Shown here: piece after piece, positions 7,672 to 24,018 of the stretch
Layout of the letters: each line of letters starts with the position of its first letter
Numbering within the stretch: the stretch's first letter is position 1
Assembly (NCBI GenBank): GCA_013202295.1
Contig: JABMRT010000096.1
Location: 1 to 54,051 of the forward strand
Reading direction: 5' to 3'
DNA length: 54,051 nucleotides
Origin: Candidatus Zhuqueibacterota bacterium
GTDB lineage: Bacteria; Zhuqueibacterota; QNDG01; JABMRT01
Translations under genes and position numbers: made by a program
The notes under the pieces: generated by a model
The model's database searches: none
What the model was told of the DNA's origin: nothing
The model's input: only the letters and a program-made list of their open reading frames with translations

Positions 7672-8634
7672 TCAATGGATGAGTTTAAGGATTCGATTCC
7701 ATCTGATTTTGTGAAGCAATCGATAGAATGGAATCTCATTGTCCCAAGACCAATAAATGATTAGTGGTTCTCCAACAACTAATTTCTCAGGTAAAAATCC
7801 CCAGTATCGGCTGTCCAAACTTTCGTCCCTGTTGTCACCCATGAGAAAGTAATGACGATTCTTGACCGTGTAGAGGCGGTTTTTGATTGGATCTCTATCA
7901 ATGAAAAAGGCGTCAATGGGATAGCTGTCTGTATATCGATTCCATTGGTCAATGTTTTTTTCGCTGAGAATGATTGTTTGTCCACGATGTGTTAACTCTA
8001 AATAGAAGCCTTCATAAAAGGCAATCGTTAACCATTTGGACCAATCCATTCTCGACTCGTCGGTGAAACGGAAAGTATCCCCCGGAGCAGGGACACGAAC
8101 GGGGCCGTAATTGTCTCGATTTCCAGCACCACGAGGAAACATGCCAGACTGCTGTTGATCAATCGAGATGGTTCCCGGTTTGAATAACGTCCTGGGTGCA
8201 TTTGGAAATGGAATGCCATTGATCGTCGTCAACTTGTCCCGGATTTCTAAAGTATCTCCGCTGACAGCGATGCAACGTTTGATATAATTAAGGGATTGGT
8301 CTTTTGGATATTTAAAGATAACTATATCGCCACTTTTGGGTTTACGAAAACCGGGCGTTCGGAAATAGGGTATTCTGAATCCAATCTTTGTATAAGGGAT
8401 ACCGATCCAATCGGGAGAGCGGAGGCCATAGACAAATTTGTTTGCAAGCAGAAAGTCGCCAACAAGAAGGGAGTCTTTCATGGAACCGGTTGGAATACGA
8501 AATGGATAAATAACTAGAGCCCGGATAACAAGCGCAATCAGAAGTGCGACAATGAATGATTGTGTGTATTCACGAAATCCGGATATTTTGGATTTGGATT
8601 TTTGGGATTTCGTTAGCTTTTCAGGTTTGGCCAT
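7672..8634 (-). CDS. lepB: Signal peptidase I, second tandem copy
   Basis: A 320-residue type I signal peptidase that cleaves signal peptides of exported proteins on the outer face of the inner membrane. One membrane segment (about residues 26-43) is followed at once by PTGSMKDSL with the nucleophile Ser51; the catalytic Lys119 lies in NYIKRCIA. GDNRDESLDSRYWG near the C-terminus is the conserved box E. The protein is longer than minimal signal peptidases because of an insert (about 135-250) shared with the neighbouring copy. The two copies are alike throughout, so they arose by tandem duplication. Both keep all active-site residues. Confidence 0.94.
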   Translation of the reverse strand: MAKPEKLTKSQKSKSKISGFREYTQSFIVALLIALVIRALVIYPFRIPTGSMKDSLLVGDFLLANKFVYGLRSPDWIGIPYTKIGFRIPYFRTPGFRKPKSGDIVIFKYPKDQSLNYIKRCIAVSGDTLEIRDKLTTINGIPFPNAPRTLFKPGTISIDQQQSGMFPRGAGNRDNYGPVRVPAPGDTFRFTDESRMDWSKWLTIAFYEGFYLELTHRGQTIILSEKNIDQWNRYTDSYPIDAFFIDRDPIKNRLYTVKNRHYFLMGDNRDESLDSRYWGFLPEKLVVGEPLIIYWSWDNEIPFYRLLHKIRWNRILKLIH

Positions 8635-8696
8635 CGCTTGACTGAAAATCCTTAAATGATTTTATAGCTTATAGAATTTAATATAGCTTTAGTCAA

Positions 8697-9653
8697 TTAA
8701 TGAATCAACTTCAATATTCGGCTCCAGCGGATTTTATTGAGAATTCGGTACAGCGGCGTGGTGTTGTCCCAAGACCAGTAGATGATCAGAGCCTCGCCTA
8801 CCACGAGCCGTTCGGGCAGGAAACCCCAATAACGGCTGTCAAGGCTGTTGTCACGATTGTCACCCATCATAAAGTAATGACGATTTTTAACGGTATAAAG
8901 CGTGTTTTCGAGAGATTGGTTATCCAGATAATAAGCTTCAAGGGGGTACTGACGGATATATCGGCTCCACTGTGCAAGATTTTTCTCGTCCAGTTCAATC
9001 TCCTGTCCATGATATTTCAGTAGAAGATCATGACCCTCGTATAGCGCGACAACCATCCACTCTTCCCACTTGTCGATATTGCTCTGCGTGAATCGGAGCG
9101 TATCACCTGGAGCCGGTACACGGACCGGGCCGTAATTGTCCCGGTTTCCCGCACCGGGCGGGAAACTGTGCCGCTCCTGTGCGCCTTGAGGATAAATCGT
9201 GCTGTGTACAAATTTGGTTTTTGGTGCGTTCTGAAATGGCACGCCGTTCACGTTTACGACCTTGTCTCGAATCAAAACAGTATCACCACTCTGTGCGATG
9301 CAGCGCTTGATGTAATTGAGTGACTGATCCTTCGGATATTTAAAGATTACCACATCCCCGGGATGGGGATCACGGAATCCCGGTGTGCGGATAAAGGGAA
9401 TCTTGAATCCGATTTTAGTATAGGGAATGCCGATCCAGTCGGGGGAGCGCAGGCCGTATACAAATTTATTGGCCAGCAGAAAGTCTCCTTCCAGCAAGGA
9501 ATCCTTCATGCTGCCGGTTGGGATCCTGAACGGATAAATGACCAGCGCACGGATGACCAGTGCAATGATTAATGCAACAAAAAAGGATTCGGAATATTCG
9601 CGAAAACTGCTTTTGTTGTTTTCAGGAGATTTCTTTTTGGATTCCTTCGCCAT
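8697..9653 (-). CDS. lepB: Signal peptidase I, first tandem copy
   Basis: A 318-residue paralogue of the gene at 7672, with the same layout: N-terminal basic tail, one membrane segment (about 23-40), nucleophile Ser48 in PTGSM, general base Lys116 in NYIKRCIA, and the box E sequence GDNRDNSLDSRYWG. It starts 11 bp after the lepA stop, the lepA-lepB order known from many bacteria. The N-terminal tails of the two copies differ most, and the catalytic blocks are almost identical. Two active signal peptidases may split substrates or raise dosage; nothing in the sequence tells which. Confidence 0.94.
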   Translation of the reverse strand: MAKESKKKSPENNKSSFREYSESFFVALIIALVIRALVIYPFRIPTGSMKDSLLEGDFLLANKFVYGLRSPDWIGIPYTKIGFKIPFIRTPGFRDPHPGDVVIFKYPKDQSLNYIKRCIAQSGDTVLIRDKVVNVNGVPFQNAPKTKFVHSTIYPQGAQERHSFPPGAGNRDNYGPVRVPAPGDTLRFTQSNIDKWEEWMVVALYEGHDLLLKYHGQEIELDEKNLAQWSRYIRQYPLEAYYLDNQSLENTLYTVKNRHYFMMGDNRDNSLDSRYWGFLPERLVVGEALIIYWSWDNTTPLYRILNKIRWSRILKLIH

Positions 9654-9664
9654 GAAAAGATCCT

Positions 9665-11467
9665 CTATTCTTGTTGGATTTTAAGTACGGCCAGAAATGC
9701 TTCTTGCGGGATTTCAACTCGCCCGACCTGCTTCATACGTTTTTTACCAGCCTTTTGTTTTTCCAGCAATTTACGTTTTCTGGAGATGTCGCCCCCATAA
9801 CATTTGGCTGTTACATTCTTACGCAACGCCTTGACGGTGGTGCGCGCGACGATTTTGGAGCCGATGGCTGCCTGAATGGCCACTTCGTAAAGCTGACGCG
9901 GAATCAACTCTTTCAGTTTGGATGTTAACTTGTGACCCCATTCAAATGCCTTGTCTCTGTGTATGATCATTGAAAGCGCATCCACGGGTTCTCCGTTAAT
10001 GAGAATATCGAGTTTATCCAGATTGGACGGTCTGAATTCCAATAACTCGTAATCGAATGAGGCATATCCCCGTGAACAGGATTTTAATTTATCATAGAAG
10101 TCAAAGATGATCTCCCCCAGGGGGAATTCGTAATGCAGGGTCACCCTCTTGGGATCCAGATAAACCGTATCTTTGTATATGCCCCGTCGGTCCTGTGCCA
10201 GTTTCATCAGGTTGCCGACATATTCGGTAGGCACCACGATGTTGGCGTCGATGTAAGGTTCTTCGATTTTGTCAATTTTCATAATCGGTGGCAATGCCGT
10301 TGGATTGTCCAGCAGCATCACCCGGCCGTCTTTGTGTGTGACCTGGTACTCCACATTGGGAATGGTTGTGATCAGCGATTGTTCGTACTCCCGTTCAAGT
10401 CGTTCTTGAACGATCTCCATGTGAAGCAGTCCGAGAAAACCGACGCGGAATCCGAAACCGAGCGCAACCGAACTTTCGGGTTCGTAGATCAATGCCGAGT
10501 CGTTGAGCTGTAAACGCTCAAGTGCGTTTCTCAGTTCCGGCAGGTCATTTGAATCCGTTGGAAAAAGCCCTGAAAAGACCATGGGTTTGGGTTCGCGGAA
10601 TCCGGGTAAAGGTTCCACTGTGGTTTTTCCCTCTAAAGTCAGTGTGTCACCGACCTTGGTATCCTTCAAATTTTTCATACCGGCTATCAGGTATCCCACT
10701 TCACCGGCCTGAAGCGTATCCACGGATTTTCGCTGAAGACGAAGTTTGCCGATCTCATCCACTTCAAAAACCTTGCCGTTTGAGAGAAATCGTATATTAT
10801 CTCCTTGATTGACCTCACCATCAACCACACGGATGAGGGCAATGGCGCCTCGGTAGTAATCAAATATTGAATCGAAAATCAGCGCCCTTAGGGGGCCGTC
10901 CGGTTGACCTTTCGGCGAAGGGATTTCATGGACGATTGTTTCCAGCACTTCAGGTATGCCTATGCCCTCTTTTGCGCTAACCTTAAGGATTTCATCTTCT
11001 TTTACGCCGAGCAGTTCCATAATCTGATGGGTGACATCTTCAATTTGTGCGCTGGGTAGATCAATCTTATTAATCACAGGAATGATCTGAAGGTCATTCT
11101 CCATCGCAAGATAAATATTGCTCATGGTCTGGGCCTCAATGCCTTGAGCTGCGTCCACAATCAATAAAGCACCTTCGCAGGCTGAGAGACTTCGTGAGAC
11201 TTCATATGAGAAATCGACATGACCAGGGGTATCAATCAGGTTGAGCTGATAGTTGATGCCATCCTTTGCCTTATAATTCATGGTAATGGCATGGGCCTTG
11301 ATTGTGATGCCGCGCTCGCGCTCCAAATCCATGCTGTCCAACACCTGCTCTTTCATAGCCTTGCCAGAGACAGTGTGGGTCACTTCAAGCAGCCGATCCG
11401 CCAACGTAGATTTGCCGTGATCGATATGCGCGATGATTGAAAAATTTCTTATATGCTTCATTTCCAT
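9665..11467 (-). CDS. lepA: Elongation factor 4 (LepA) GTPase
   Basis: A 600-residue translational GTPase of normal LepA length. It has the G1 loop AHIDHGKST (13-21), the G2 region RGITIKAH, G3 DTPGH (near 79-83), G4 NKID and the LepA-specific C-terminal domain ([20 protein letters not shown] near 560-579). EF4 binds ribosomes and is implicated in back-translocation or late 30S assembly. The start ATG at 11467 has no clear Shine-Dalgarno sequence; a second in-frame ATG at 11461 matches the usual LepA start (MKHIRNF). A strong promoter ends only 9 bases before the first ATG, so the mRNA may be leaderless. First gene of the lepA-lepB-lepB-hemW operon. Confidence 0.96.
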
Positions 11468-11475
11468 AGCTTATC

Positions 11476-11504
11476 AATATATCGATTTACTTTTGGAGAG
11501 TCAA
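11476..11504 (-). promoter_or_regulatory. Predicted promoter of the lepA operon
   Basis: On the minus strand TTGACT (11504-11499), a 17-bp spacer and TATATT (11481-11476). The transcript would start near 11469, within 2 bases of the first lepA ATG, leaving no room for a ribosome binding site. Confidence 0.65.
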
Positions 11505-11653
11505 TCCTTAAAAAAGTAGAAAGGTGAAATGGGGAATTATAGCAAGGTACAGCTTGATCGTGAGCGAGATGAGTGAGTAGAGATTATTCTGCCTGATCGG
11601 AAGGTGGGTGAAGAGAGAGGTGTTGGAGGTTCTTTAATTATCTATGATATTTG

Positions 11654-11687
11654 AAAAAGCCCTGCTCGAATGAGCGGGGCTTTTTTT
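11654..11687. terminator. Rho-independent terminator downstream of the glycosyltransferase gene
   Basis: AAAAAGCCCTGCTC and GAGCGGGGCTTTTT form a 12-bp stem (with one mismatch) around GAAT, flanked by A- and T-runs. It touches the stop codon of the minus-strand glycosyltransferase (11686). The stretch 11505-11653 holds no convincing gene. Confidence 0.8.
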
Positions 11688-12477
11688 ATTTAGTCTTATA
11701 ATCCTCCGTCTCCGGAAGTTTAGCTATTCCCTTCCTAATTTCCCACGCCTTAACATACCGAAACCAGTTAAACTGCGCCTGCATACAGGCAAAGATAAAA
11801 CCGATTAGGCCGTCAAGAATCGCACCTTTGGCAAAGTAAACTCTGAGGAATGTGGAAAGGGTGTGCACACCGGCCGAGAAAACGGAGATATGTTTTTTCT
11901 TGTGTTGAATCATGTCCGCTGCGTTTGCTGTGGAGTAGGTATTCATCTTCTTTAACACATGATGCAGATTCGGGTCGGTGTAGTGTTCGAGATAGCCCAT
12001 AGAGTCCACGATCTCACCTTGTACAGTGACACCACAATGAATCTTGGCATCGTTCCATGCGCCATATTCTTTACGATAGAGGCGGAGTTGAAAATCATTG
12101 TTCCACATGCGCATGGGCTTACCCAGAAAATAGGAGCGTCTGCGAAGGCGCATTCCATTGACTTCAGAATCAGATGCATTGATCAGGGTTTTGATTTCCT
12201 GCCACAATTTCGGGGAGACCCGTTCGTCCGCGTCGAGGGAGAGCACCCATTCATGGGTGGCGAGTTCGGCCAGATCGGCTTTGGTTTGTGCGTGGCCCTT
12301 GAATTCCAATTGATGCAGATTAGATGTGAATTTCCGGGCTTTGTCCATCGTGTCATCCGTACTGCCGGTGTCGGCGACAAGAATTTCATCTGCTTGGCTG
12401 ACCGAAGTGAGGCAATCCTCAATATTATTGGTTTCATTGAGTGTGATCACGCAGACAGAGAGGGGGAGTTTTAACAT
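11686..12477 (-). CDS. Family 2 glycosyltransferase, LPS core type (WaaE/KdtX-like)
   Basis: A 263-residue GT-A-fold glycosyltransferase. The N-terminus LSVCVITLNET (6-16) and ILVADTGSTDDT (31-42) bind the nucleotide sugar; LSLDADERV (78-86) holds the metal-binding DxD. The later RRRSYFLGKPM and IHCGVTVQGEI stretches resemble the WaaE/KdtX group, which adds a sugar to the lipopolysaccharide core. The C-terminal part (about 205-235) is hydrophobic and probably membrane-associated. It stands alone on the minus strand. The donor and acceptor sugars cannot be named. Confidence 0.85.
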   Translation of the reverse strand: MLKLPLSVCVITLNETNNIEDCLTSVSQADEILVADTGSTDDTMDKARKFTSNLHQLEFKGHAQTKADLAELATHEWVLSLDADERVSPKLWQEIKTLINASDSEVNGMRLRRRSYFLGKPMRMWNNDFQLRLYRKEYGAWNDAKIHCGVTVQGEIVDSMGYLEHYTDPNLHHVLKKMNTYSTANAADMIQHKKKHISVFSAGVHTLSTFLRVYFAKGAILDGLIGFIFACMQAQFNWFRYVKAWEIRKGIAKLPETEDYKTK

Positions 12478-12916
12478 GGAAAACCTTCCAAGAATATATT
12501 TAACACAGTGATGTCATTCTGATCCCGCCGTGGCGGAAGAAGAATCTAATAGCCCAGCCCCACCCCGGAGATACTTCGTCCTGCTGTGCAGGACTCAGTA
12601 TGACAAAATAATACTGGGTTTTGGACATAAACGCAACCGTTTTTTAAAAAGACAGATAAAAGCTTTTCAGGAGATTTTACGTCGATGCTGTTTTTTTGGC
12701 CACTTTTTTCGAAAAAATGTGGCATCCATTACCTCAATATATTCTATATCTTATTCTGTTATGGAAATTGCATTCGACATATATTTCAATAATATTTTGG
12801 AACATCTAGAAAAAGATCCTCGTACAAGAAATAACTTACATAGGCGCATGCCTCACTATTAAATCACAGAGAGGTCGTGCATGGTGTTGAAACTCTCCAA
12901 CTACTAGGAGGCGATC
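12478..12916. other. Intergenic region between divergent glycosyltransferase and FHA genes
   Basis: This 439-bp stretch holds the inverted-repeat element at 12513-12604 and otherwise AT-rich sequence. A 110-codon frame at 12530-12862 starts inside the repeat, has low-complexity composition and no family features, so I do not call it a gene. A weak promoter-like pair (TTGCAT near 12768 and TAATAT, 16-bp spacer) precedes the FHA operon. AGGAGG at about 12906 is the ribosome binding site of the FHA gene. Confidence 0.6.
12513..12604. repeat. 92-bp imperfect inverted-repeat element
   Basis: Left arm from GTCATTCTGA (12513) to AGAATCT (12547) and right arm from AGATACTTCG (12569) to CAGTATGAC (12604) are imperfect reverse complements of about 35 bases, with inner sub-palindromes in each arm (CCGCCGTGGCGG; TCCTGCTGTGCAGGA). 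The outer ends match the widespread GTCATTCTGAG-type intergenic palindromes of many bacterial genomes. There is no coding capacity, so it resembles a MITE or REP-like element. Confidence 0.7.
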
Positions 12917-15037
12917 ATGAGAAATCAGGATCAGTTCAACACCACGATGGAAGAACAGGCACTTGCAGATATCGAGCAAGTGGAGCAAGAAAATTTTGAA
13001 CCTGTTGAGGAACTGGAAGCAGACGATCAGACTGTTCTGCGTTCAGAACCCACCGTTGTGGTGAAGAAAGACGACGCGGTAGTTTTCGAAGGAACCCTCG
13101 AAGAACTTCCTGTCCAAATCGGACGAAAATCCACCAATCACATTGTACTCGATGAAAAGAATGTTTCGCGTCAGCATGCGCAGATTCTGATGAAAGACGA
13201 TCAGTATTTCATTCAGGATCAGGGAAGCACAGGCGGCACGAAAGTCAATGGCGAACCGGTTTTGGAGAAAGACATCCACACCGGGGACCGCATTGAAATC
13301 GGATCGTTTCAGATTCTCTTCAATTCAGGGATTCCGGAAGACGAACGCACCATTTATGATGCGGACGATCAGACGATGCTCGAAGACGGCACGGAGATGG
13401 ATGAAGACCGCACCCTGTTTTACGAGGAGCCGGTTGCGAAACTTGTTGTCACGCAATCCGACTCTCTGGAAGGGGAATTTCCCCTTGAGGATGAAGAAAT
13501 CATTCTAGGCCGGGATGAGGACGCGGGTATCCCGATTGATGACAAGCGCATTTCACGTCATCACTGCAAACTCTGGATCAATGAGGGCGAATACACACTC
13601 ACGGATCTGGGCAGCTCCAACGGCACATTCGTAAACAATCAGCGTATTACTGAGACCATCCTGAAAAATGGTGATCAGATCACGGTCGGATCCAGCAAGT
13701 TCAGCTTCTCGCTCGAAACACCGGGGGCGCCGGGCAAGAAGAGGGTGCCCACTCTGGTCAAGGGCGCAATCGGCGTACTTGCACTGGCAGTGATCGCATT
13801 TGTGATCATGCAGATTCTTCCGCGATTCCAAACCCTGGAACCGCAAAAGGTCATACTACAAAAAATGTGGGAACAGCCCACTTTGGCTGCCGTGACTGCT
13901 TCACCCAGTCTAGGTGATGTGAACGGCGACGGATACATGGATCTCGTAACCGCCGATATGAGCGGTCGAGTGTATGCCATGGATACACGTCAGGGTGGCG
14001 CAATTTGGAATTCCACATTAAATACTGAAGGTGGCGCTTTGCTCTGTTCTCCCTTGCTTGCGGACATCAATAAGAGTGACGGCGAGTTTGACGTGATCAT
14101 GGCGACCTCCACGCAGGGGGTCTGGGCCGTGGACGGTGCGACCAAACGACGCATCTGGCGCGGCAGCCTGGATTCGGCAGTGCCTTCCACACCCGCGGCT
14201 GCGGACATCAATGGCGACGGCACGTCCGATATATTTGTGGGCACGAAAAAAGGCTCGCTGCTCTGCTTTGACGGACGTCAGGGTGGTGTGGTCTGGAACG
14301 TGCCTCTGGGTGCGACACTCCAATCCTCTCCGCGATTCGGCGACCTGAACCGCGACGGCCACATGGATGTGGTGATCGGGGCCGAGGATTTCCGAATCCA
14401 TGCTTTGGACGGACGGAACGGCCATTCGATCTGGATTCATGTGGGTACGCATGTGCCTTCCACGGCAGCGATTGCGGACATGAATAATGATGGTATCCCG
14501 GATGTGGCGATCATCACGCCGGCAGAGGTGATCATCCTCGAAGGTAAGACCGGAGCGGCCCTGTGGCGCTGGAGCGTGCCGCAGACCGCGCGTCCCACAA
14601 CCGCGGATCCCTTCATTCCCGATCCTCCGGCCATTGCGGATCTGAATCGCGACGAGATCCCGGACGTGATCGTTCCAACCGCGGGTGGTCATGTGTACGC
14701 CATCGACGGGGCATCCAATGGGTTGGCATATCTTTGGGATTACGGCCTGACGCGATCCCGCAAGACCGCGCCTGCGCTGCATGATATGAATCGTGATGGT
14801 GTCACGGATGTGGTGTTCGGCGATACGGACGGCAATCTGACGGTTGTGGACGGTACGACCGGGCATCAGCTGAATCAGATTCAGGTGGGTGGCTCCATCA
14901 TCGGAGCACCTGCCATTGCAGATATGAACGGCAACGGCACCGCGGATCTGGTCGTCGGCACAAAGAACAAGACGATCATTGCGATTGAAACCGAATCCTC
15001 GGTGAAGCCGAATCAAATTGTTTGGAATTCCTTCTAA
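12917..15037 (+). CDS. Tandem-FHA transmembrane protein with eight-repeat FG-GAP/PQQ-like propeller
   Basis: A 706-residue protein with an unusual layout. The acidic N-terminus is followed by FHA domain 1 (about 66-135; IGR, SRQH at 84-87, G-T-K-V-N-G at 107-112) and FHA domain 2 (about 197-266; LGR, SRHH at 213-216, SSNGTFVN at 233-240). A KKR-flanked membrane segment follows (about 282-302), then a beta-propeller region with eight calcium-type D-x-N-x-D-G-x-x-D repeats, predicted periplasmic. FHA domains bind phosphothreonine. Four acidic threonine motifs (Thr39, Thr145, Thr153, Thr166; all D/E-x-Q/R-T-hydrophobic) flank the FHA domains and look like kinase/FHA sites. AGGAGG precedes the ATG. 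The phosphatase and kinase genes follow. The external ligand is unknown. Confidence 0.85.
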   Translation: MRNQDQFNTTMEEQALADIEQVEQENFEPVEELEADDQTVLRSEPTVVVKKDDAVVFEGTLEELPVQIGRKSTNHIVLDEKNVSRQHAQILMKDDQYFIQDQGSTGGTKVNGEPVLEKDIHTGDRIEIGSFQILFNSGIPEDERTIYDADDQTMLEDGTEMDEDRTLFYEEPVAKLVVTQSDSLEGEFPLEDEEIILGRDEDAGIPIDDKRISRHHCKLWINEGEYTLTDLGSSNGTFVNNQRITETILKNGDQITVGSSKFSFSLETPGAPGKKRVPTLVKGAIGVLALAVIAFVIMQILPRFQTLEPQKVILQKMWEQPTLAAVTASPSLGDVNGDGYMDLVTADMSGRVYAMDTRQGGAIWNSTLNTEGGALLCSPLLADINKSDGEFDVIMATSTQGVWAVDGATKRRIWRGSLDSAVPSTPAAADINGDGTSDIFVGTKKGSLLCFDGRQGGVVWNVPLGATLQSSPRFGDLNRDGHMDVVIGAEDFRIHALDGRNGHSIWIHVGTHVPSTAAIADMNNDGIPDVAIITPAEVIILEGKTGAALWRWSVPQTARPTTADPFIPDPPAIADLNRDEIPDVIVPTAGGHVYAIDGASNGLAYLWDYGLTRSRKTAPALHDMNRDGVTDVVFGDTDGNLTVVDGTTGHQLNQIQVGGSIIGAPAIADMNGNGTADLVVGTKNKTIIAIETESSVKPNQIVWNSF

Positions 15038-15124: not shown

Positions 15125-15922
15125 TTGAAAATAGATGTTGCATTTGACTGCCACGCCATTACAGATAAGGGCATGCGCCGGCGGCTGAATGAGGATGTGT
15201 ATGTGTGCGATCCGGATCTGGGACTGTTTCTCGTGGCGGACGGTATGGGGGGTGAAAGCTGCGGGGATGTGGCCAGCCAGCTCACGGCTGAAACCTTTAA
15301 GGACAGTATCGCTCCCTATATCCTCGATGAAGAGGCCACCGCGCCCTTCGAGCATACCAATGAAGGGGATTTCTTCCTCAACACGCTGGGCCACGCGGCG
15401 GAGCAGACCAATCAGACCGTGCTTCAAGCTGTGAAAAATAATCCAACTTGCAAAGGCATGGGATCCACATTGACGGCCGCGCTGATTCAGGATGACTTGC
15501 TCTATGTCGTGCATGTGGGGGATTCGCGTCTGTACTGTTATCATGAGGAATTATTGACTCCGCTTACGGAAGATCATACGCGTGTTCAGGAGATGGTGAA
15601 TAAAAATATCATTTCTGCAGAAGAGGCACGCACTCATCATCAGCGCAACATTATCACACGCTGTGTGGGACGTAAGAAGCAGTTCAAACCGGATCTGTTT
15701 AAAGTAGAACTTTTGTCCAATGCCCTGTGTCTGATCTGCAGCGACGGTCTGTACGACATGCTGGATGATTCAGAAATTTCAGAAATCATCCGGGCCAATC
15801 CAGATCTGGACCAGCTGGGTGCGCAGCTCGTGGATCGCGCCAACAAGGCCGGCGGCAAGGACAATATCACGGTCGTGCTGTTCCGGCCGACATCCGAAAA
15901 CTCATCCGGAGTAGAGAGCTGA
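15125..15922 (+). CDS. PP2C-family serine/threonine phosphatase (Stp/PphA type)
   Basis: A 265-residue soluble metal-dependent phosphatase. Metal and phosphate ligands are visible: RRLNED (19-24), ADGMGG (38-43), HVGDSRLYCY (near 130-139), CSDGLYDML (near 202-210) and GGKDNITVV (near 244-252). It removes phosphate from Ser/Thr residues and normally counteracts the kinase encoded next door. The start is TTG at 15125 with AAAGGAG just upstream. The gene lies 87 bp after the FHA gene and one base before the kinase gene, so the three form an operon. Confidence 0.92.
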   Translation: MKIDVAFDCHAITDKGMRRRLNEDVYVCDPDLGLFLVADGMGGESCGDVASQLTAETFKDSIAPYILDEEATAPFEHTNEGDFFLNTLGHAAEQTNQTVLQAVKNNPTCKGMGSTLTAALIQDDLLYVVHVGDSRLYCYHEELLTPLTEDHTRVQEMVNKNIISAEEARTHHQRNIITRCVGRKKQFKPDLFKVELLSNALCLICSDGLYDMLDDSEISEIIRANPDLDQLGAQLVDRANKAGGKDNITVVLFRPTSENSSGVES

Positions 15923-15923
15923 T

Positions 15924-17114
15924 TTGACTTCCAAGAAGATAAAAAAGAAACTGGGCAAATATCAGATTGAGCGGCAGATTGGCAAAGGCAGCGCGGCCAA
16001 TATCTATCTGGCCGAGCAGGATTCATTGGGCCGGAAACTCGTCATCAAAGAACTGCTTCCGCTCTATTCATCCAATGAAAAGATTGTGATTCGGTTTCAA
16101 CGTGAGGCCAAGCTCATCTCCCAGCTTTCTCATGAAGCGATCACACATATTTATGATTACTGGGTCAAGGGCAACTCCTATTACATTGCCATGGAGTACG
16201 TGCCCGGGCCACACATCCGTAAAATCCTTTCCACAGTGCATCACGTGCCCGTCCACATTGCGGCACTCATCATTTATCAGATCTGCCGGGGGCTTGATCA
16301 CGCGCATAAGGCGGGTGTGATTCATCGTGATCTGAAGCCCGCCAATATCATGATTTCCAATTTGGGACAGGTCAAAATTCTCGATTTCGGCGTGGCCCAT
16401 TTTCAGGCCGAGGAGAATTTGACCGCACTGGGTGCGGTACTCGGCACCTATCATTATATGTCTCCTGAACAGGCTGTGGGTAAGAAGGTCACACCGGCTT
16501 CTGATGTCTTCTCCCTCGGCATTCTCGTTTATGAATTGCTCACAGGCATCAAGCCATTTTCCAAGGATGATGACGGCGAGGTGCTCGAGAAGATCGTGAA
16601 CAAGAAAGTGCGTTCCGTGCGGCGAATTAATCCGGCTGTGCCCCGCTCCTTAGATCGGATTATAAAGAAGTGCCTGAAGAAGAATTCCAAGCGACGTTTT
16701 CAGGACGCGGATCAGATCAAACTGAAATTGGAAAAGGTTCTGAAGAAATATTCCCTTGATCACAATGCCATCCTGAAAACCTATCTGGATAATCTAGCAC
16801 CCACACCGCCTGATCCGCACTGGCCGCCGAATCTGTGGCGAAGGATTCTGTACCGGCTCACGCATCAGAGTATCCGGACGTATTTTATCTGGGTGATGGT
16901 TCTTGCGGGTTTTGGATTCGGAGAGTACTATTTACACTCGCGGGGAATTACACTGCAACATCAATGGAATGTAGTCCAAAAAGTTACACTATCCGCGTGG
17001 GATAGGGTGATTCCAGCCAAATCTGATACACAGAGAGATCAGGAGATAAATTCCGATGCAAAGCTGGAAAATCCAAAAATCTCTTCACAGGACTCGACAT
17101 CTGCTGTAAAGTAA
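15924..17114 (+). CDS. Membrane-anchored eukaryotic-type Ser/Thr protein kinase
   Basis: A 396-residue Hanks-type kinase. Landmarks are the glycine loop IGKGSAANIYLA (19-30), catalytic Lys42 in VIKE, catalytic loop HRDLKPAN (134-141, Asp136), DFG (154-156) and the activation segment GTYHYMSPE (174-182). The kinase domain ends near 275. A membrane segment follows (about 318-335), then a short polar tail of about 60 residues without PASTA repeats. It starts with TTG one base after the phosphatase stop. The likely substrates are the acidic threonine motifs of the upstream FHA protein, inferred from context. There is no sensory domain of its own, so input may come from the FHA/propeller partner. 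Confidence 0.93.
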   Translation: MTSKKIKKKLGKYQIERQIGKGSAANIYLAEQDSLGRKLVIKELLPLYSSNEKIVIRFQREAKLISQLSHEAITHIYDYWVKGNSYYIAMEYVPGPHIRKILSTVHHVPVHIAALIIYQICRGLDHAHKAGVIHRDLKPANIMISNLGQVKILDFGVAHFQAEENLTALGAVLGTYHYMSPEQAVGKKVTPASDVFSLGILVYELLTGIKPFSKDDDGEVLEKIVNKKVRSVRRINPAVPRSLDRIIKKCLKKNSKRRFQDADQIKLKLEKVLKKYSLDHNAILKTYLDNLAPTPPDPHWPPNLWRRILYRLTHQSIRTYFIWVMVLAGFGFGEYYLHSRGITLQHQWNVVQKVTLSAWDRVIPAKSDTQRDQEINSDAKLENPKISSQDSTSAVK

Positions 17115-17277: not shown

Positions 17278-17304
17278 AACCAATGATCCTGTCCAATAAT
17301 TTTG

Positions 17305-17321
17305 TCACATGTCCAATGTGA
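17305..17321. promoter_or_regulatory. Inverted repeat between GH30 promoter and ribosome binding site
   Basis: TCACAT-GTCCA-ATGTGA is a perfect 6+5+6 inverted repeat in the leader, ending 3 bases before the AAGGAGG ribosome binding site. It may be a repressor operator or a leader hairpin. Its half-sites are those of a CRP site but in the opposite order. Confidence 0.5.
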
Positions 17322-17334
17322 TCAAGGAGGGTTT

Positions 17335-18789
17335 ATGAAGATCCTGAACCGTTTTCTGAACATCCTTTTTCTGCTGATTTTTATATTCGCTGGATGTCAA
17401 AAATCTCCCGAAATCCAAAGGGAGGGATGGAAGATCCCAAAGAAGGCGGAGGTCTTTCTAACCGCTAAAGATACAGACCACAGGCTTTCGAAACAGAGGA
17501 GTATTTCCTTTTTCGGATTTCCGCAGCCAGATGAGGCTGATGCCGCGATCATGATTGATCCCAATAAAACATTTCAGGAAATTGAAGGATTTGGCGGCGC
17601 ATTGACGGACGCGTCTGCCGAGACCTTTTCCAAACTGCCCGGATCCAAACAGGAGGAACTGCTTGAGGCGTACTTTGATCCTGAAATCGGGATCGGATAC
17701 ACACTTTGCCGAACAAGCATTCACACCTGCGATTTCTCGAGCTTCAGTCAGGCGTATACAGAAGTGAAAGATGATACACTGCTCAACAATTTTACAATCG
17801 AGCAAGATCGGACACACCGTATCCCCTTTATCAAACAGGCTTTGGCAGTTTCGGATTATCAGATGAAGATGTTTGCTTCGCCCTGGAGTCCGCCCGCATG
17901 GATGAAATCCAATGACAATATGCTGCAGGGCGGTAAACTGAAACCCGAATATCGAAAGGCCTGGGCACGGTATTATGTACGCTTTATCCGAGCATATGAG
18001 GCGGAAGGTATCCCCATCTGGGGATTGACTGTGCAGAATGAGCCAATGGCCACACAGACCTGGGAATCCTGCATTTACACCGCTGAAGAAGAACGCGACT
18101 TTGTGCGTGATTATTTGGGTCCTGCACTGGAAACTGAGGGTCTGTCCCGCGTGAAACTCATGGTTTGGGATCACAATCGCGGTATTATGTATCAGCGCGC
18201 TAAGGTGGTGCTGGACGACTCCCTTGCATCCCAATATGTGTGGGGTACTGGATTTCACTGGTATGTGGGCGATCACTTTGAGAATGTGCGGCTCGTGCAT
18301 GATGCCTTTCCGGATAAAAAGCTGATCTTCACAGAAGGATGCGTGTTTTCCTATGTGCCTGAACGAATCGACGAATGGCAGTGGGGCGAGCAATATGCAG
18401 AATCCGTGCTTATGGATCTGAACAACTGGGCTCATGGCTGGGTGGACTGGAACGTTCTCCTGGATGAACAGGGAGGACCCAATCATGTGGGCAATTTCTG
18501 TTTCGCGCCGGTTCATGCTGATACCAAAGAGGGCACACTTCATTATATGAATTCCTATTACTATCTCGGCCATTTTTCCAAGTTTATCCGGCCCGGAGCG
18601 AAACGGATTATCGCATCCTCTAACGATGATCAATTATTGACCACGGCCTTTCTCAATCCGGATGGCAAGATTGCGGTGGTGGTTCTCAATATGACAGATG
18701 AGGAAATCCCCTTTATGCTCTGGATTGAGGGCCGTGCAGCCAAGAGCGTCAGTCCACAACATTCGATCATTACATTGATTATGGGATAA
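17335..18789 (+). CDS. Glycoside hydrolase family 30 lipoprotein (glucosylceramidase-like beta-glycosidase)
   Basis: A 484-residue exported enzyme. The start is the ATG at 17335 with AAGGAGG just upstream; a longer frame reaches back through the leader palindrome. The signal segment (1-22) ends with a lipobox before Cys (IFAGC), so it is a lipoprotein. The GH30 (alpha/beta)8 barrel shows the usual FGGALTDASAE near 85, the acid/base Glu236 in VQNEPMA and the nucleophile Glu334 in FTEGC. GH30 enzymes cleave beta-glucosides, beta-xylosides or beta-1,6-glucans; the substrate here is not certain, although the subgroup resembles glucosylceramidase/beta-1,6-glucanase. The DUF5916 gene follows after 10 bp, as an operon. 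Confidence 0.9.
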   Translation: MKILNRFLNILFLLIFIFAGCQKSPEIQREGWKIPKKAEVFLTAKDTDHRLSKQRSISFFGFPQPDEADAAIMIDPNKTFQEIEGFGGALTDASAETFSKLPGSKQEELLEAYFDPEIGIGYTLCRTSIHTCDFSSFSQAYTEVKDDTLLNNFTIEQDRTHRIPFIKQALAVSDYQMKMFASPWSPPAWMKSNDNMLQGGKLKPEYRKAWARYYVRFIRAYEAEGIPIWGLTVQNEPMATQTWESCIYTAEEERDFVRDYLGPALETEGLSRVKLMVWDHNRGIMYQRAKVVLDDSLASQYVWGTGFHWYVGDHFENVRLVHDAFPDKKLIFTEGCVFSYVPERIDEWQWGEQYAESVLMDLNNWAHGWVDWNVLLDEQGGPNHVGNFCFAPVHADTKEGTLHYMNSYYYLGHFSKFIRPGAKRIIASSNDDQLLTTAFLNPDGKIAVVVLNMTDEEIPFMLWIEGRAAKSVSPQHSIITLIMG

Positions 18790-18799
18790 GAATTCCATC

Positions 18800-20968
18800 A
18801 TGAATCTTTCCAAATTGGGGCGCACTGCCTTTGCTTTTGTTTTGCTTTTCTCAATATTACTTTTTGGGGAGGAAAAGAGGGAAATCCAATTGTCTTTGGG
18901 CGAGAGTAGTGCGGACAGTTCCAATCCACAGGTTGTTGAAGAACGATCAACTCTATCCGCTACGCACAATAGTGAGAAGATAACCATCGATGGTCTGCTT
19001 AGCGAGGAAGTGTGGCTGAAGGCCGAAAAACTGGATATCTTCTACCAGTTCGAACCGCATTACAATGAGCCGGCTTCTTTGCCCACCATCCTTCGGGCCG
19101 CCTACGATGAGAAAAATCTCTACTTCGCATTTGACTGCAAAGATCCGGAACCGGCCAGGATCACGGCCCGGGCTACCAAGCGGGACGGAGACGTTCTAGA
19201 AGATGACGCCGTGGCCATCGCCCTGGATACCTTCGATGACAACAACAGCGCCTATATGTTTGCCATCAATCCACTGGCCACTCAACAGGATGGACGCTTC
19301 GCTGACAACGGCCGTACCACGGATATGAACTGGGACGAAACCTGGTACGCGGCGGCTCATGTCTATGAGGGCGGCTGGACCTGTGAGATTGCCATTCCTT
19401 TGAAATCTCTTAAATATAATCAAAACCTGACGAGTTGGGGTTTTAGCGCAGGGCGCTGGATCGCCCGCCTGAAAGAGAAACATTTTATCAGCAAGGATCT
19501 GGTGGCCACAACGCGTGTATCCCAATTTGGCACACTGACCAGCTTGCAACTGAAAAACTTTTCCGTGAAAAATTATACAATCATTCCCTACATGCAGGGT
19601 GAGTTTGAGCAGGGTGAGGCGCCGGTGAGCAATACAGGTGTGGATGTACGCTATAATCCTGTCAGTAACCTGGGTCTCTCATTCACGATTAATCCTGATT
19701 TTGCCACAATCGAAGGGGATGTGGAGCAGGTAAACCTGACCCGCTTCGAATTGAGTTACCCCGAAAAACGCCCCTTCTTCCTGGAAGGTGCGGAGAACTA
19801 CTCCACACGGATCCGTCAGTTCTACTCCCGCCGCATCGGGGAGATCCCCTGGGGTGCCCAGGTAAACGGCAAGGTGGGCAAGTGGAACCTGAACGGATTG
19901 ATGACCACGTCTGATCCCTCAACAGCAGGAGCGGAACCTGAATCAGGTCAGGAGGCTCTCTATTCTGTGTTCCGTGTCAATAGCGAGTTGAAGGGCGGCT
20001 CCACTATCGGACTTATAGGAGCGAACCGAACTTATAAAGGAAACAACAGTGGCTCGCTGGGACTCTCGGGCACGCTCTTTTTCACAGACGTGCTGGGTAT
20101 GACCACACAGTTGATCAAATCCCACGGGTCGTCATCGGAGGGCACTTGGACCGGATTCCTTCGGCCGGCCTATGATACCCAAGTCAGCCACTTCCATCTG
20201 CGCTACTCCTCCTACGGTACGGGAGTGAAGGAGAACATGAACACGGTGGGATTTATCCGGCACGATGACCGCAAAGAGTTCGACACCAATCTGCGACATA
20301 CCTTCTGGATTAACCGCCTTGGTTTTGACTCAGTACAACCCTCCGTAAATTATAACCAGTATTGGAGCCAGTCCGGCTATCTACGCTCCTGGACCCTGGA
20401 CACGGATGTGGAAATTTCTCTATACAAAAGAGTCAGTCTGGAACTGGCTTACGAGACGGATTTCAAGGCTGAGTACGACCCCTATTTTGAGAAGGACTTT
20501 AATAATCACGAGTGGGGTTGTGATTTCGGTTACGACAACAACCGGGGATTCTCCACCAGCATCGAATACAAACGGGGAAAGATTTTTGACAGCGACATGG
20601 AGGCCATCGAGGGCGGTTTGGAAGTGAAACTTCTAGAGGCCTGGGATCTCTCGTATTTCGCAGAGAAGACCTGGCTCTCGCCTACAGAACCAGGAGAAAA
20701 CAGCTGGATCCATTACATCCGTTCCAGCTATTATCTGAACACTGATCTTTATTTCAAGGTTTTTTATCAGACCCGCTACGAGCTGAACAGTTTCTGGCGG
20801 GATCCCGATTTTGAGCTTCAGCGAAAAACACTGCAGCTCCTTATGGTCTGGCGCTTTCTGCCGCCCTTCGGCTCGTTGCAGCTGGCTTATCAGGAAGGGA
20901 CGACCCGTTTCACGGAAGATGAGGGCCGGGGAAGAACTCTCTTCACCAAGCTTTCCTGGGTATTTTAA
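18800..20968 (+). CDS. DUF5916 outer-membrane protein with CBM9-like N-terminal domain
   Basis: A 722-residue protein with an N-terminal signal segment (about 1-24). A carbohydrate-binding family 9-like domain follows (about 55-225; IDGLLSEEVW, AYDEKNLYFAFDCKDP and DDAVAIALDTF are typical positions). The long C-terminal region has alternating aromatic beta-strands, ends in a final Phe (WVF) and contains the DUF5916 hallmark YPEKRPFFLEGAENY. This family is predicted to form an outer-membrane beta-barrel with an external sugar-binding domain; no biochemical role is established. Its position behind the GH30 lipoprotein suggests binding or import of the same glycan, which is inference. Confidence 0.85.
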   Translation: MNLSKLGRTAFAFVLLFSILLFGEEKREIQLSLGESSADSSNPQVVEERSTLSATHNSEKITIDGLLSEEVWLKAEKLDIFYQFEPHYNEPASLPTILRAAYDEKNLYFAFDCKDPEPARITARATKRDGDVLEDDAVAIALDTFDDNNSAYMFAINPLATQQDGRFADNGRTTDMNWDETWYAAAHVYEGGWTCEIAIPLKSLKYNQNLTSWGFSAGRWIARLKEKHFISKDLVATTRVSQFGTLTSLQLKNFSVKNYTIIPYMQGEFEQGEAPVSNTGVDVRYNPVSNLGLSFTINPDFATIEGDVEQVNLTRFELSYPEKRPFFLEGAENYSTRIRQFYSRRIGEIPWGAQVNGKVGKWNLNGLMTTSDPSTAGAEPESGQEALYSVFRVNSELKGGSTIGLIGANRTYKGNNSGSLGLSGTLFFTDVLGMTTQLIKSHGSSSEGTWTGFLRPAYDTQVSHFHLRYSSYGTGVKENMNTVGFIRHDDRKEFDTNLRHTFWINRLGFDSVQPSVNYNQYWSQSGYLRSWTLDTDVEISLYKRVSLELAYETDFKAEYDPYFEKDFNNHEWGCDFGYDNNRGFSTSIEYKRGKIFDSDMEAIEGGLEVKLLEAWDLSYFAEKTWLSPTEPGENSWIHYIRSSYYLNTDLYFKVFYQTRYELNSFWRDPDFELQRKTLQLLMVWRFLPPFGSLQLAYQEGTTRFTEDEGRGRTLFTKLSWVF

Positions 20969-21113
20969 GATCTAAAAAGTGAATAAGACGAATGTGGATC
21001 ACGAGTGGAGATATTAGAAATTCCTTTTATACTTTGAATCAAGGGCTGAGCAGTATGGAGCATCAGTTCAGCACGTTCAATTATTACTTAGATTTTGGGA
21101 TAAGGAGCACATC

Positions 21114-23081
21114 ATGAAGCTTTCCAGAATGAATACCATCTTCATCGTCCTTTTTCTGCTGCTTTCTATAACACTTGTTGCGGAGGTACGTCTGCCGCGT
21201 GTTTTCTCGAGCCACATGGTGCTGCAGCAGGATCGGGATATACCGGTCTGGGGTTGGGCCGAACCTGGTGAACAGGTGACTGTAAAATTGTTTGATCAGA
21301 AAAAATCCACTACTGCGGATGAAGAAGGAACCTGGCGCGTGACTTTAAGCAAGATGGAAGCAGGCGGCCCTTATCAGATGATTGTGGAAGACAGCAGTGT
21401 CGTACTCTTCGATGATGTGCTCATCGGCGAGGTGTGGATTTGTTCAGGACAGTCCAATATGGAGTGGCCGCTTTCCATGGTGAATAACGCGGATGAGGAG
21501 ATGGCAGCCGCGGATTATCCCAACATGCGACTTTTCCAAGTGTCCAATCGGATTGGGGGTAAGCCGGAAACTGATCTCCCCTCTGGTGCGTGGGCTGTGT
21601 GTACACCTGAAACCGCGCCGGAATTTTCTGCGGTGGGTTACTTTTTCGGACGGGATCTCCTTAAAACACAGAATGTGCCGGTCGGATTGATCAGTTCGAA
21701 CTGGGGCGGTACGGATATTGAAACGTGGATCAGTCAGGAAGCCATTCAGACCCATCTTGATTTTGAGGCGCCTGATGAGGCCATGGGGAAAATGTCCATG
21801 CAGGAAATCATGGAGAAAGCGGACGAGGAATACGAAGCATGGCTGGTATCCATCCGTGAAAACGATCTGGGTATGAAAGAAGGCAGTCCAATCTGGGCTG
21901 ATCCTGATCTGGATGCGAGTGAATGGCCGATCATGTCTTTACCAAGTCTCTGGGAGGGATCCGGTCTACCCGGCCTGGACGGTGTGGTTTGGTTCCGCAA
22001 GACCTTTGATCTAACCGATCCTGAAGCAAAATCGGATCTTCATTTATCCCTCGGACCAATCGATGATTCGGACGAGACTTTTGTCAACGGCAAGAAAGTC
22101 GGCGAAATGTGGGATCAGTACAATGTCCCACGAAAATATACAGTACCATCCGATGTGCTGCAATCCGGTACGAATACATTGGCAGTTCGGGTTGAGGATT
22201 ATACAGGTGGTGGTGGGCTGTGGGGCAAGCCGGAGCAGCTTTTTATCCAAACCATGACGGAAGAACGCACCTTGGTTGGGGATTGGCAGTATCAGGTGGG
22301 GTCGGGCAGTGAGTCCCGGCGTCCCAGGCAACCGGGGCCGAACAGCTATCCCTCATTACTTTTCAACGGCATGATCAATCCGCTCATCCCATACGCCATG
22401 CAGGGTGTGATCTGGTATCAGGGTGAGAACAACGCAGGCCGCGCATATCAGTACCGCGACCTGCATCCGCTGATGATTAAAGACTGGCGCAACCGCTGGG
22501 ACGATGATTTTCCATTCCTTCTCGTCCAGCTTGCCAATTACATGGCTGCTCAGGATGCACCGGCTGAGAGCGACTGGGCCGAACTTCGCGAGGCGCAGCT
22601 CATGACTCTGTCCGAAAAGAAAACGGGTATGGCTGTCACGATTGATGTCGGCGAAGCGCAGGATATTCATCCCCGGAACAAGCAGGATGTGGGTCACCGG
22701 CTGGCCCTGGCTGCGCGTAAGATCGCGTACGGCGAGGATATTGTCCACTCCGGGCCGATTTATGATTCCATGAAAAAGAAAAAGGATCACATCCAGCTTA
22801 AGTTCAAACATGCAGGAAGCGGCCTTGAAGTGAAGGATCGGTACGGTTATTTAAAAGGATTCGCAATCGCAGGATTGGACAGTGTGTTCCATTGGGCCAA
22901 AGCAGAGATCGACGGCAAAGACAAGGTGAAAGTCTGGAATCCTAAAATCGAAAAACCGATTGCTGTGCGTTATGGCTGGGCGGCCAATCCGGATGATGTG
23001 AATCTCTATAATAAAGAGGGATTGCCCGCGTCTCCGTTCCGCACGGATGACTGGCCGGGAGTGACGCAGAAAGCGAAGTGA
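21114..23081 (+). CDS. Sialate O-acetylesterase family protein
   Basis: A 655-residue exported esterase. The signal segment covers about 1-22. The SGNH-like catalytic domain holds the GQSNMEW box with nucleophile Ser114 and the D-x-H pair Asp517/His519 in QDIHPRNK. Between them lies a GH2-type beta-sandwich insertion (about 280-390), common in this family. These enzymes remove acetyl groups from sialic acids or from plant polysaccharides such as xylan and mannan. With GH30 and GH130 genes nearby, a plant or algal hemicellulose role is at least as likely as sialic acid. AAGGAG precedes the ATG. The enzyme is probably periplasmic and ends in a strong terminator. Confidence 0.9.
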   Translation: MKLSRMNTIFIVLFLLLSITLVAEVRLPRVFSSHMVLQQDRDIPVWGWAEPGEQVTVKLFDQKKSTTADEEGTWRVTLSKMEAGGPYQMIVEDSSVVLFDDVLIGEVWICSGQSNMEWPLSMVNNADEEMAAADYPNMRLFQVSNRIGGKPETDLPSGAWAVCTPETAPEFSAVGYFFGRDLLKTQNVPVGLISSNWGGTDIETWISQEAIQTHLDFEAPDEAMGKMSMQEIMEKADEEYEAWLVSIRENDLGMKEGSPIWADPDLDASEWPIMSLPSLWEGSGLPGLDGVVWFRKTFDLTDPEAKSDLHLSLGPIDDSDETFVNGKKVGEMWDQYNVPRKYTVPSDVLQSGTNTLAVRVEDYTGGGGLWGKPEQLFIQTMTEERTLVGDWQYQVGSGSESRRPRQPGPNSYPSLLFNGMINPLIPYAMQGVIWYQGENNAGRAYQYRDLHPLMIKDWRNRWDDDFPFLLVQLANYMAAQDAPAESDWAELREAQLMTLSEKKTGMAVTIDVGEAQDIHPRNKQDVGHRLALAARKIAYGEDIVHSGPIYDSMKKKKDHIQLKFKHAGSGLEVKDRYGYLKGFAIAGLDSVFHWAKAEIDGKDKVKVWNPKIEKPIAVRYGWAANPDDVNLYNKEGLPASPFRTDDWPGVTQKAK

Positions 23082-23101
23082 GGTTTCATCCAATAATAAT
23101 T

Positions 23102-23136
23102 AAAAAGCCCCACTTGGATGAGAGGGGCTTTTTTTA
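23102..23136. terminator. Bidirectional rho-independent terminator
   Basis: AAAAAGCCCC and GGGGCTTTTT form the stem of a hairpin with A- and T-runs on both sides. It lies between the converging esterase gene and the small membrane-protein gene. Confidence 0.88.
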
Positions 23137-23167
23137 ATCCACTACCCGTTATACAGGTTCTCCCTTT

Positions 23168-23371
23168 TCAAGGGGATATTCTTTCATTTTGAAAGGCATT
23201 CCATTTCTTTCGTCTAACCAGACCTATAATCAGGTATGTAATGCCTGTTCCGTACAAGATAAATACACATTCGAATTTGAATTTCATTGTCAGCAGGATT
23301 CCGGCGATGAGCAGTCCAACGCCGTAAATGAAGTATTGTTTGTGATTTGATTTGTTTTTATTGCTTGTCAT
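23168..23371 (-). CDS. Small two-helix membrane protein of unknown function
   Basis: A 67-residue frame beginning MTSNKNKSN, with two predicted membrane helices (about 13-29 and 35-53), a short loop and a basic tail (RRKKW). I do not recognise a family. It lies 29 bp after the lipoprotein gene on the same strand and directly before a terminator, which argues for a real gene. No convincing Shine-Dalgarno sequence is seen, so confidence is moderate; a TTG one codon upstream is also possible. Confidence 0.5.
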   Translation of the reverse strand: MTSNKNKSNHKQYFIYGVGLLIAGILLTMKFKFECVFILYGTGITYLIIGLVRRKKWNAFQNERISP

Positions 23372-23400
23372 CAAGGGGTGTCACGAAATAGGAGGTTTGA

Positions 23401-23871
23401 CTATTTATTAAAATCCCATGAGTCTTGCACCACTTGCACGTCGCCTTCTTCCTGATTGCCGTAGAATCCCCATTCGGCGGGATCTTTTCGCAGAAAACAG
23501 AATCCAAGCGGGTCGAATCCGGGCGTGAATTCAACCGATTCCTCGCCGTTCTCCCACTCCACAGTGATGACGAACGAGCATTCGGCGTAAATCCCCTTTA
23601 ACTTGATGTGAATGTTCGTGATGTTCAACGCGTTCGGGCCATCGCTCAGAATAATTTCCACGAATTCCTTGTCAATGCCGTTATGCAGAAAGCGAACAGA
23701 GAAAAGCTTCATGAGCCGATCCCTATTGCCAGTGTTGTAAAACGATTCGAACTGGCTGTACAGGGCCTTGATCAACTCATGGTCAGTGACGATGGGCCCC
23801 GTGATTTTATTAACACAACTGGATGTGATCAACAAAATGCAGATTATTGAAAGGGCGGCTTTCCTCATCAT
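23401..23871 (-). CDS. Putative lipoprotein of unknown function
   Basis: A 156-residue protein with a signal peptide and a lipobox before Cys19 (LITSSC). The mature part has a stretch resembling SnoaL/NTF2-like folds (LIKALYSQFESFYNTGNRDRL, about 33-53, then beta-strands), a common fold of small exported binding proteins; this resemblance is only suggestive. GGGGGA stands before the start codon, and a well-formed promoter lies at 23929-23957. No carbohydrate-active motif is present. It probably sits in the inner leaflet of the outer membrane. Confidence 0.7.
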   Translation of the reverse strand: MMRKAALSIICILLITSSCVNKITGPIVTDHELIKALYSQFESFYNTGNRDRLMKLFSVRFLHNGIDKEFVEIILSDGPNALNITNIHIKLKGIYAECSFVITVEWENGEESVEFTPGFDPLGFCFLRKDPAEWGFYGNQEEGDVQVVQDSWDFNK

Positions 23872-23928
23872 GGATTTCCCCCTGAAAATTCTGATTTAGA
23901 TAGGTTTTGTTAAAGTTGCCTGATGTGT

Positions 23929-23957
23929 AATATAGCTTAAAGAGCGTGAAATTGCAA
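23929..23957 (-). promoter_or_regulatory. Predicted promoter of the lipoprotein gene
   Basis: On the minus strand TTGCAA (23957-23952), 17-bp spacer, TATATT (23934-23929). The transcript would start near 23922, about 50 bases before the lipoprotein start codon. The same -35/-10 pair occurs in front of the sulfatase-maturase gene. Confidence 0.6.
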
Positions 23958-24018
23958 ATGGATTTCCTTGATATTCATTCCATGACTTTTAAGAGAATGT
24001 GATTTCTGATGTATGAAT

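Follow-up and report, generated by a model that had tools for sequence, protein, structure and literature searches.

The window (the whole stretch of 54,051 nucleotides of Candidatus Zhuqueibacterota DNA that was analysed) contains a three-gene unit on its forward strand, in which a protein with two FHA domains and a propeller comes first, followed by a PP2C phosphatase and then by a Ser/Thr protein kinase:

12917..15037, +, FHA-FHA-TM-propeller protein, 706 aa (ORF, Pfam, AlphaFold2 model)
13052..13324, +, FHA1, aa 46-136 (Pfam, model, ortholog alignment)
13328..13432, +, inter-FHA linker, aa 138-172 (model, ortholog conservation)
13436..13714, +, FHA2, aa 174-266 (Pfam, model, ortholog alignment)
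13751..13828, +, single membrane helix, aa 279-304, positive-inside (hydropathy, model, charge count)
13859..15034, +, eight-bladed FG-GAP/PQQ-like propeller, aa 315-706, predicted periplasmic, BamB-like fold (Pfam, model, fold match)
15125..15922, +, PP2C phosphatase, Stp1/IreP family (Pfam, metal-site motifs present, equivalog score)
15924..17114, +, Ser/Thr protein kinase (Pfam; HRDLKPAN and DFG present; no PASTA)

The start, end and strand of the first ORF are confirmed exactly, and, judged by four full-length orthologs (48-77% identity) that keep its whole architecture, it is a real gene and no chance ORF. Pfam finds two FHA stretches in its product (E 2.5e-42; 143.6 bits against a cut-off of 20.7) and FG-GAP, FG-GAP_3 and PQQ_2 repeats. 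An AlphaFold2 model, built with 14 homologs as input, has a mean pLDDT of 81.6, with low confidence in the N-terminal tail (1-41) and in residues 145-170 of the linker. The strands of the propeller make up eight four-stranded blades (the count was read by the author from the model's strand list), the last of them completed by the strand at 315-321; the top solved folds found for it by Foldseek are those of BamB, itself an eight-bladed propeller (target TM ~0.73-0.83, at ~18% identity). Each blade carries one DxNxDG-type loop in the sequence (at 334, 383, 430, 476, 525, 575, 623 and 669), and the Asp residues of these loops are among the best-conserved columns. The eight repeats and the closed fold of an FG-GAP/PQQ-like propeller are both found, in the model's strand pattern and in the BamB matches. 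A reading of the DNA made earlier from the letters alone (the sequence-only reading) had proposed just this layout of two FHA domains, one membrane segment and an eight-repeat propeller, and Pfam, hydropathy, the AlphaFold2 model and the fold matches bear it out.

Which way round might such a protein sit in the membrane? Its one strong hydrophobic segment (283-301, hydropathy 2.61) is flanked by KKR..K on the FHA side: four Lys/Arg residues precede it (net +4) and three follow it (net +2), and the same bias is seen in the orthologs, which favours placing the FHA part inside. An independent indication comes from homologs of a second branch (described below), in which an extra C-terminal helix nearly always has a K/R-rich tail after it; this favours a propeller that is outside. 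Omp85 proteins are encoded in the genome, so that the organism should be diderm and a periplasm is to be expected. The cytoplasmic FHA part and periplasmic propeller of the sequence-only reading are supported as a prediction by these two lines of evidence.

The phosphatase scores above the Stp1/IreP equivalog cut-off (245.6 against 230). The kinase had been said to lack any external sensor, and to the extent that Pfam detects no PASTA and no outer domain is recognisable in it, this holds; but it also has a weak, conserved hydrophobic segment at ~317-333, followed by a tail of ~60 residues, and this segment may be a membrane anchor. Identity as a PASTA kinase (PknB/Stk1) is not sustained: the score is 304.6 against 450, over the kinase region only. 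(A technical note on defence models, with PADLOC's anti-phage kinase systems such as PD-T4-6 in view: the kinase domain matches many kinase models and the phosphatase one candidate model, PDC-M21C, these hits being to generic kinase or PP2C models, and the FHA-propeller protein matches none. Elsewhere in the window, the region downstream of the unit, 17302-25776, encodes a GH30 glycosidase, a CBM9/DUF5916 protein, a SASA esterase and a sulfatase, which are not conserved directly beside the orthologs' units; and two adjacent, closely similar ORFs of 320 and 318 aa at 7672-9653, on the minus strand, look like signal peptidase I paralogs.)

The four full-length orthologs were found among 82 genomes of the phylum: G014 (77% identity), G042 (67%), G009 (55%) and G008 (48%). 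The PP2C gene is next to the FHA-propeller gene in all four, and the kinase gene comes after it in three, the contig of G008 ending after the phosphatase. The flanks of the unit are unrelated between genomes, except for one esterase-family gene that is shared at a distance with G014. The sequence-only reading had asked whether this protein co-occurs with an adjacent phosphatase and kinase: it does, in a gene order that is kept where the surroundings are not, with the kinase present wherever the contig continues. G043, of the same genus as G042, has PP2C and then kinase at the start of a contig, and PP2C orthologs of at least ~50% identity occur only in G043 and in the genomes that have an FHA-propeller ortholog. 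G012 and G013, which belong to the same family as the window genome, do not have the unit. A scan of contigs, limited to close relatives, yielded one full ortholog, probably from the genome of G014.

Sequence comparisons suggest, without proving it, that the unit has moved horizontally. G042 lies outside the window's order and G009 inside it, yet G042 is the closer in all three genes (67% vs 55% for the FHA-propeller protein and 73% vs 61% for the kinase, for example); for LepA the ranking is reversed (67% for G043 vs 72-74%; G043 stands in here for its congener G042, whose LepA is a fragment), and in the PP2C tree G042 falls together with the window and G014 (support 96/97).

Beyond these compact proteins there is a second branch (families f12 and f19-f23), of ~780-910 residues, in which the order is FHA, FHA, helix, propeller, second helix. 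Among the matches listed, 33 FHA-bearing frames are of second-branch size (they were picked by FHA and size, and the propeller was read in part of them), and 26 of these have a same-strand PP2C gene directly downstream, at ~2 kb. Of the seven that do not, two reach the end of their contig and five belong to f12; in the three f12 cases that were fetched, a PEGA-type kinase lies on one side and a TPR protein with a second kinase on the other. The upstream kinase of the second branch that was scanned has an outer PEGA domain, and other such kinases align over that region; in a tree of 22 sequences, the clade of the window kinase is sister to the PEGA-type kinases with moderate support (94/91). 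The window's own genome has a second-branch locus, on contig C211 (L081, 7000-21089), with the order PEGA-type kinase, possible barrel protein, FHA-propeller-helix protein (whose FHA domain scores 43 bits), PP2C-helix protein, ExbB, ExbD, ExbD; the ExbB carries an Ig-like domain. This locus is possibly a kinase-controlled envelope motor. (Two further observations: L063, at 10266-12874, has two more FHA-plus-membrane-helix proteins (526 and 336 aa), close to a second-branch locus but on the other strand; and contig C96 of the window's own genome, in L082, has three Ser/Thr kinases in tandem (883, 780 and 935 aa), all with a single membrane helix at around residue 300.)

The residues that mark phospho-threonine recognition (GR, SxxH, NG) are all present in FHA2 (as GR, SRxH and NG), which is predicted to be a competent phospho-threonine reader. 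FHA1 retains GR and SRxH, but in its NG motif all five orthologs, the window's included, have Gly for Asn (STGG). In the second branch, FHA1 has lost the Arg and FHA2 the NG, and, taken together with the altered FHA1, this means that phospho-binding is probably not conserved family-wide. GarA and OdhI are among the nearest solved FHA relatives.

The segment with the highest conservation, on which the sequence-only reading (like the second locus on C211) does not remark, is neither of these domains: in the five compact-branch orthologs, 54% of the columns of linker 138-172 are invariant, against 45% for FHA1, 34% for the propeller, 29% for FHA2 and 4% for the N-terminal tail. (Naive Fisher P values are 0.0045 against the rest of the protein and 2e-8 against other unstructured segments; they are to be read with the number of sequences, five, and the non-independence of columns in mind.) The linker is mostly predicted to be disordered, and a segment that is disordered yet conserved is usually the sign of a short functional motif. 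It contains no Ser, and its Thr145, 153, 159 and 166 are invariant in an acidic setting, with Asp/Glu at the +3 position of the first three and Tyr at that of the fourth. The simplest reading is that these threonines are phospho-acceptor sites, because the conserved disordered segment has an FHA domain on either side; alternatively, the linker could be conserved as a docking site. Only the compact branch has the motif; in the second branch the linkers vary.

What is observed, then, is an architecture, a predicted fold, a gene unit that is kept among unrelated flanks, a linker with invariant threonines, and intact catalytic motifs. Together with the canonical residues of FHA2, these make a case, in our judgement evenly poised between acceptance and doubt, that the FHA-propeller protein spans the membrane as a phospho-threonine reader or scaffold dedicated to the neighbouring kinase and PP2C, the three genes specifying a transmembrane phospho-switch. 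Three parts of this scheme are inferred from sequence and model: the kinase as writer of the linker, FHA2 as its reader, and the existence of a ligand for the propeller. On the inside, the kinase would phosphorylate the threonines of the inter-FHA linker; FHA2, of the same or of a neighbouring molecule, would bind them in their phosphorylated state; and the phosphatase would reverse the modification. The propeller, which has calcium-type loops, would bind an envelope partner or ligand on the outside and bias the state or cluster that is formed. There is precedent for elements of this scheme: in GarA, OdhI and DgcB, an FHA domain recognises the protein's own tail peptide in signalling (PMC6733907), and in the GlnX/GlnH-PknG-OdhI system a separate membrane sensor, encoded in the same putative operon, controls the kinase upstream of the FHA protein (PMC9769921). 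Counted against it are the confinement of the linker motif to the compact branch, the missing Asn of FHA1, the residue losses in second-branch FHA domains, and an ortholog set of five.

Information might instead flow outward, with the propeller as output rather than sensor: the FHA pair would read phosphorylation in the cytoplasm and thereby control what the propeller does outside, for example which outer-membrane, polysaccharide or assembly factors it touches. BamB, to which the propeller is similar, serves for docking and not as a sensor of small ligands. The second-branch homolog in the window's genome sits beside the possible barrel protein, the ExbB and the two ExbDs, and there is a PorV-like protein near the second-branch locus in L063; however, no envelope-machine genes are conserved beside the compact unit, and we regard this alternative as rather unlikely. 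Less likely still is a purely structural role, in which the FHA domains form a phospho-independent piece of an envelope machine (compare the FHA-like domains in the inner rings of type III secretion systems), while the kinase and phosphatase regulate something else nearby. The second-branch FHA domains without key phospho-binding residues, the match of Pfam's YscD cytoplasmic model to the FHA region, and the ExbB and ExbD genes adjoining the second copy all fit such a role, but compact-branch FHA2 is fully canonical, the linker is threonine-rich and conserved, the periplasmic part has no ring-building domain, and secretion genes are absent among the neighbours scanned. That the three genes are functionally unrelated and merely neighbours is hardly credible: gene order alone is indirect evidence, but four orthologs keep the order although their flanks are unrelated, and the PP2C gene lies downstream in most of the listed second-branch frames, with two of the exceptions cut off by contig ends.

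If the FHA-propeller protein is there to supply a sensor that its kinase lacks, why do second-branch kinases, which already have an outer PEGA domain, keep it as a partner? The absence of PASTA next door agrees with the proposal of a supplied sensor; the second branch weakens it. A broader version of the phospho-switch is conceivable, and we put it forward tentatively, as a doubtful proposition: the phylum as a whole would have an undescribed class of split receptor kinases, with the FHA-membrane-propeller protein as the transmembrane part, and the phospho-linker, read by that protein's own FHA domain, would carry state from one side of the membrane to the other, in one direction or both. Each domain is already known, and so is the kinase/phosphatase/FHA theme; as a conserved membrane unit, the combination of FHA-membrane-propeller protein, kinase and PP2C appears to be undescribed within the papers searched. 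None of these brings FHA domain, FG-GAP and PP2C together, and forkhead-associated and FG-GAP meet in one survey of serine proteases. The layout was called uncommon; this is true of that literature, but not of the phylum, across which it recurs. The signals that activate bacterial Ser/Thr kinases are largely an open question, for which the unit offers a compact and testable case: an outer propeller is joined to an inner (predicted) phospho-threonine reader beside one kinase and one phosphatase, and four invariant threonines are concrete candidate sites.

How does this unit compare with systems already known? It shares with BamB the eight-bladed PQQ-like propeller fold, but BamB is a lipoprotein without FHA domains or a membrane helix, and the scores (66.5 vs 285.2, and 43.8 vs 423) fall below the BamB equivalog cut-offs. 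Myxococcus GltG, an envelope protein of a motor complex, also has an FHA domain; we know of no propeller in its family, and its NCBIfam model, whose cut-off is 650, finds just the FHA part of the present protein, with 91.5 bits. Mycobacterial PknD joins a Ser/Thr kinase to a beta-propeller. So do the PQQ-repeat kinases of the Streptomyces AfsK type (PMC1262709). Kinase and propeller are one chain in PknD and AfsK, whereas here they are split and the FHA domains are on the propeller protein. Chlamydial CdsD, the YscD ortholog of type III secretion, likewise pairs a two-FHA protein with a Ser/Thr kinase, PknD, which phosphorylates it (PMC2765968), but in the present protein the periplasmic part is an eight-bladed propeller with no secretion genes found beside it, and a YscD/CdsD identity was rejected on these grounds. 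FhaB/FipA was also rejected (120.5 vs a cut-off of 125, the best stretch being in the FHA region), and for GarA/OdhI (106.2 vs 200) the likeness is one of function only. That likeness, to the actinobacterial GarA/OdhI, PknG and GlnX/GlnH, is that the state of an FHA reader is tied to a kinase and to a threonine peptide of its own. The difference is one of assembly: the actinobacterial FHA protein is a soluble molecule distinct from the membrane sensor, whereas here a single protein is both reader and membrane part, with tandem FHA domains and the propeller.
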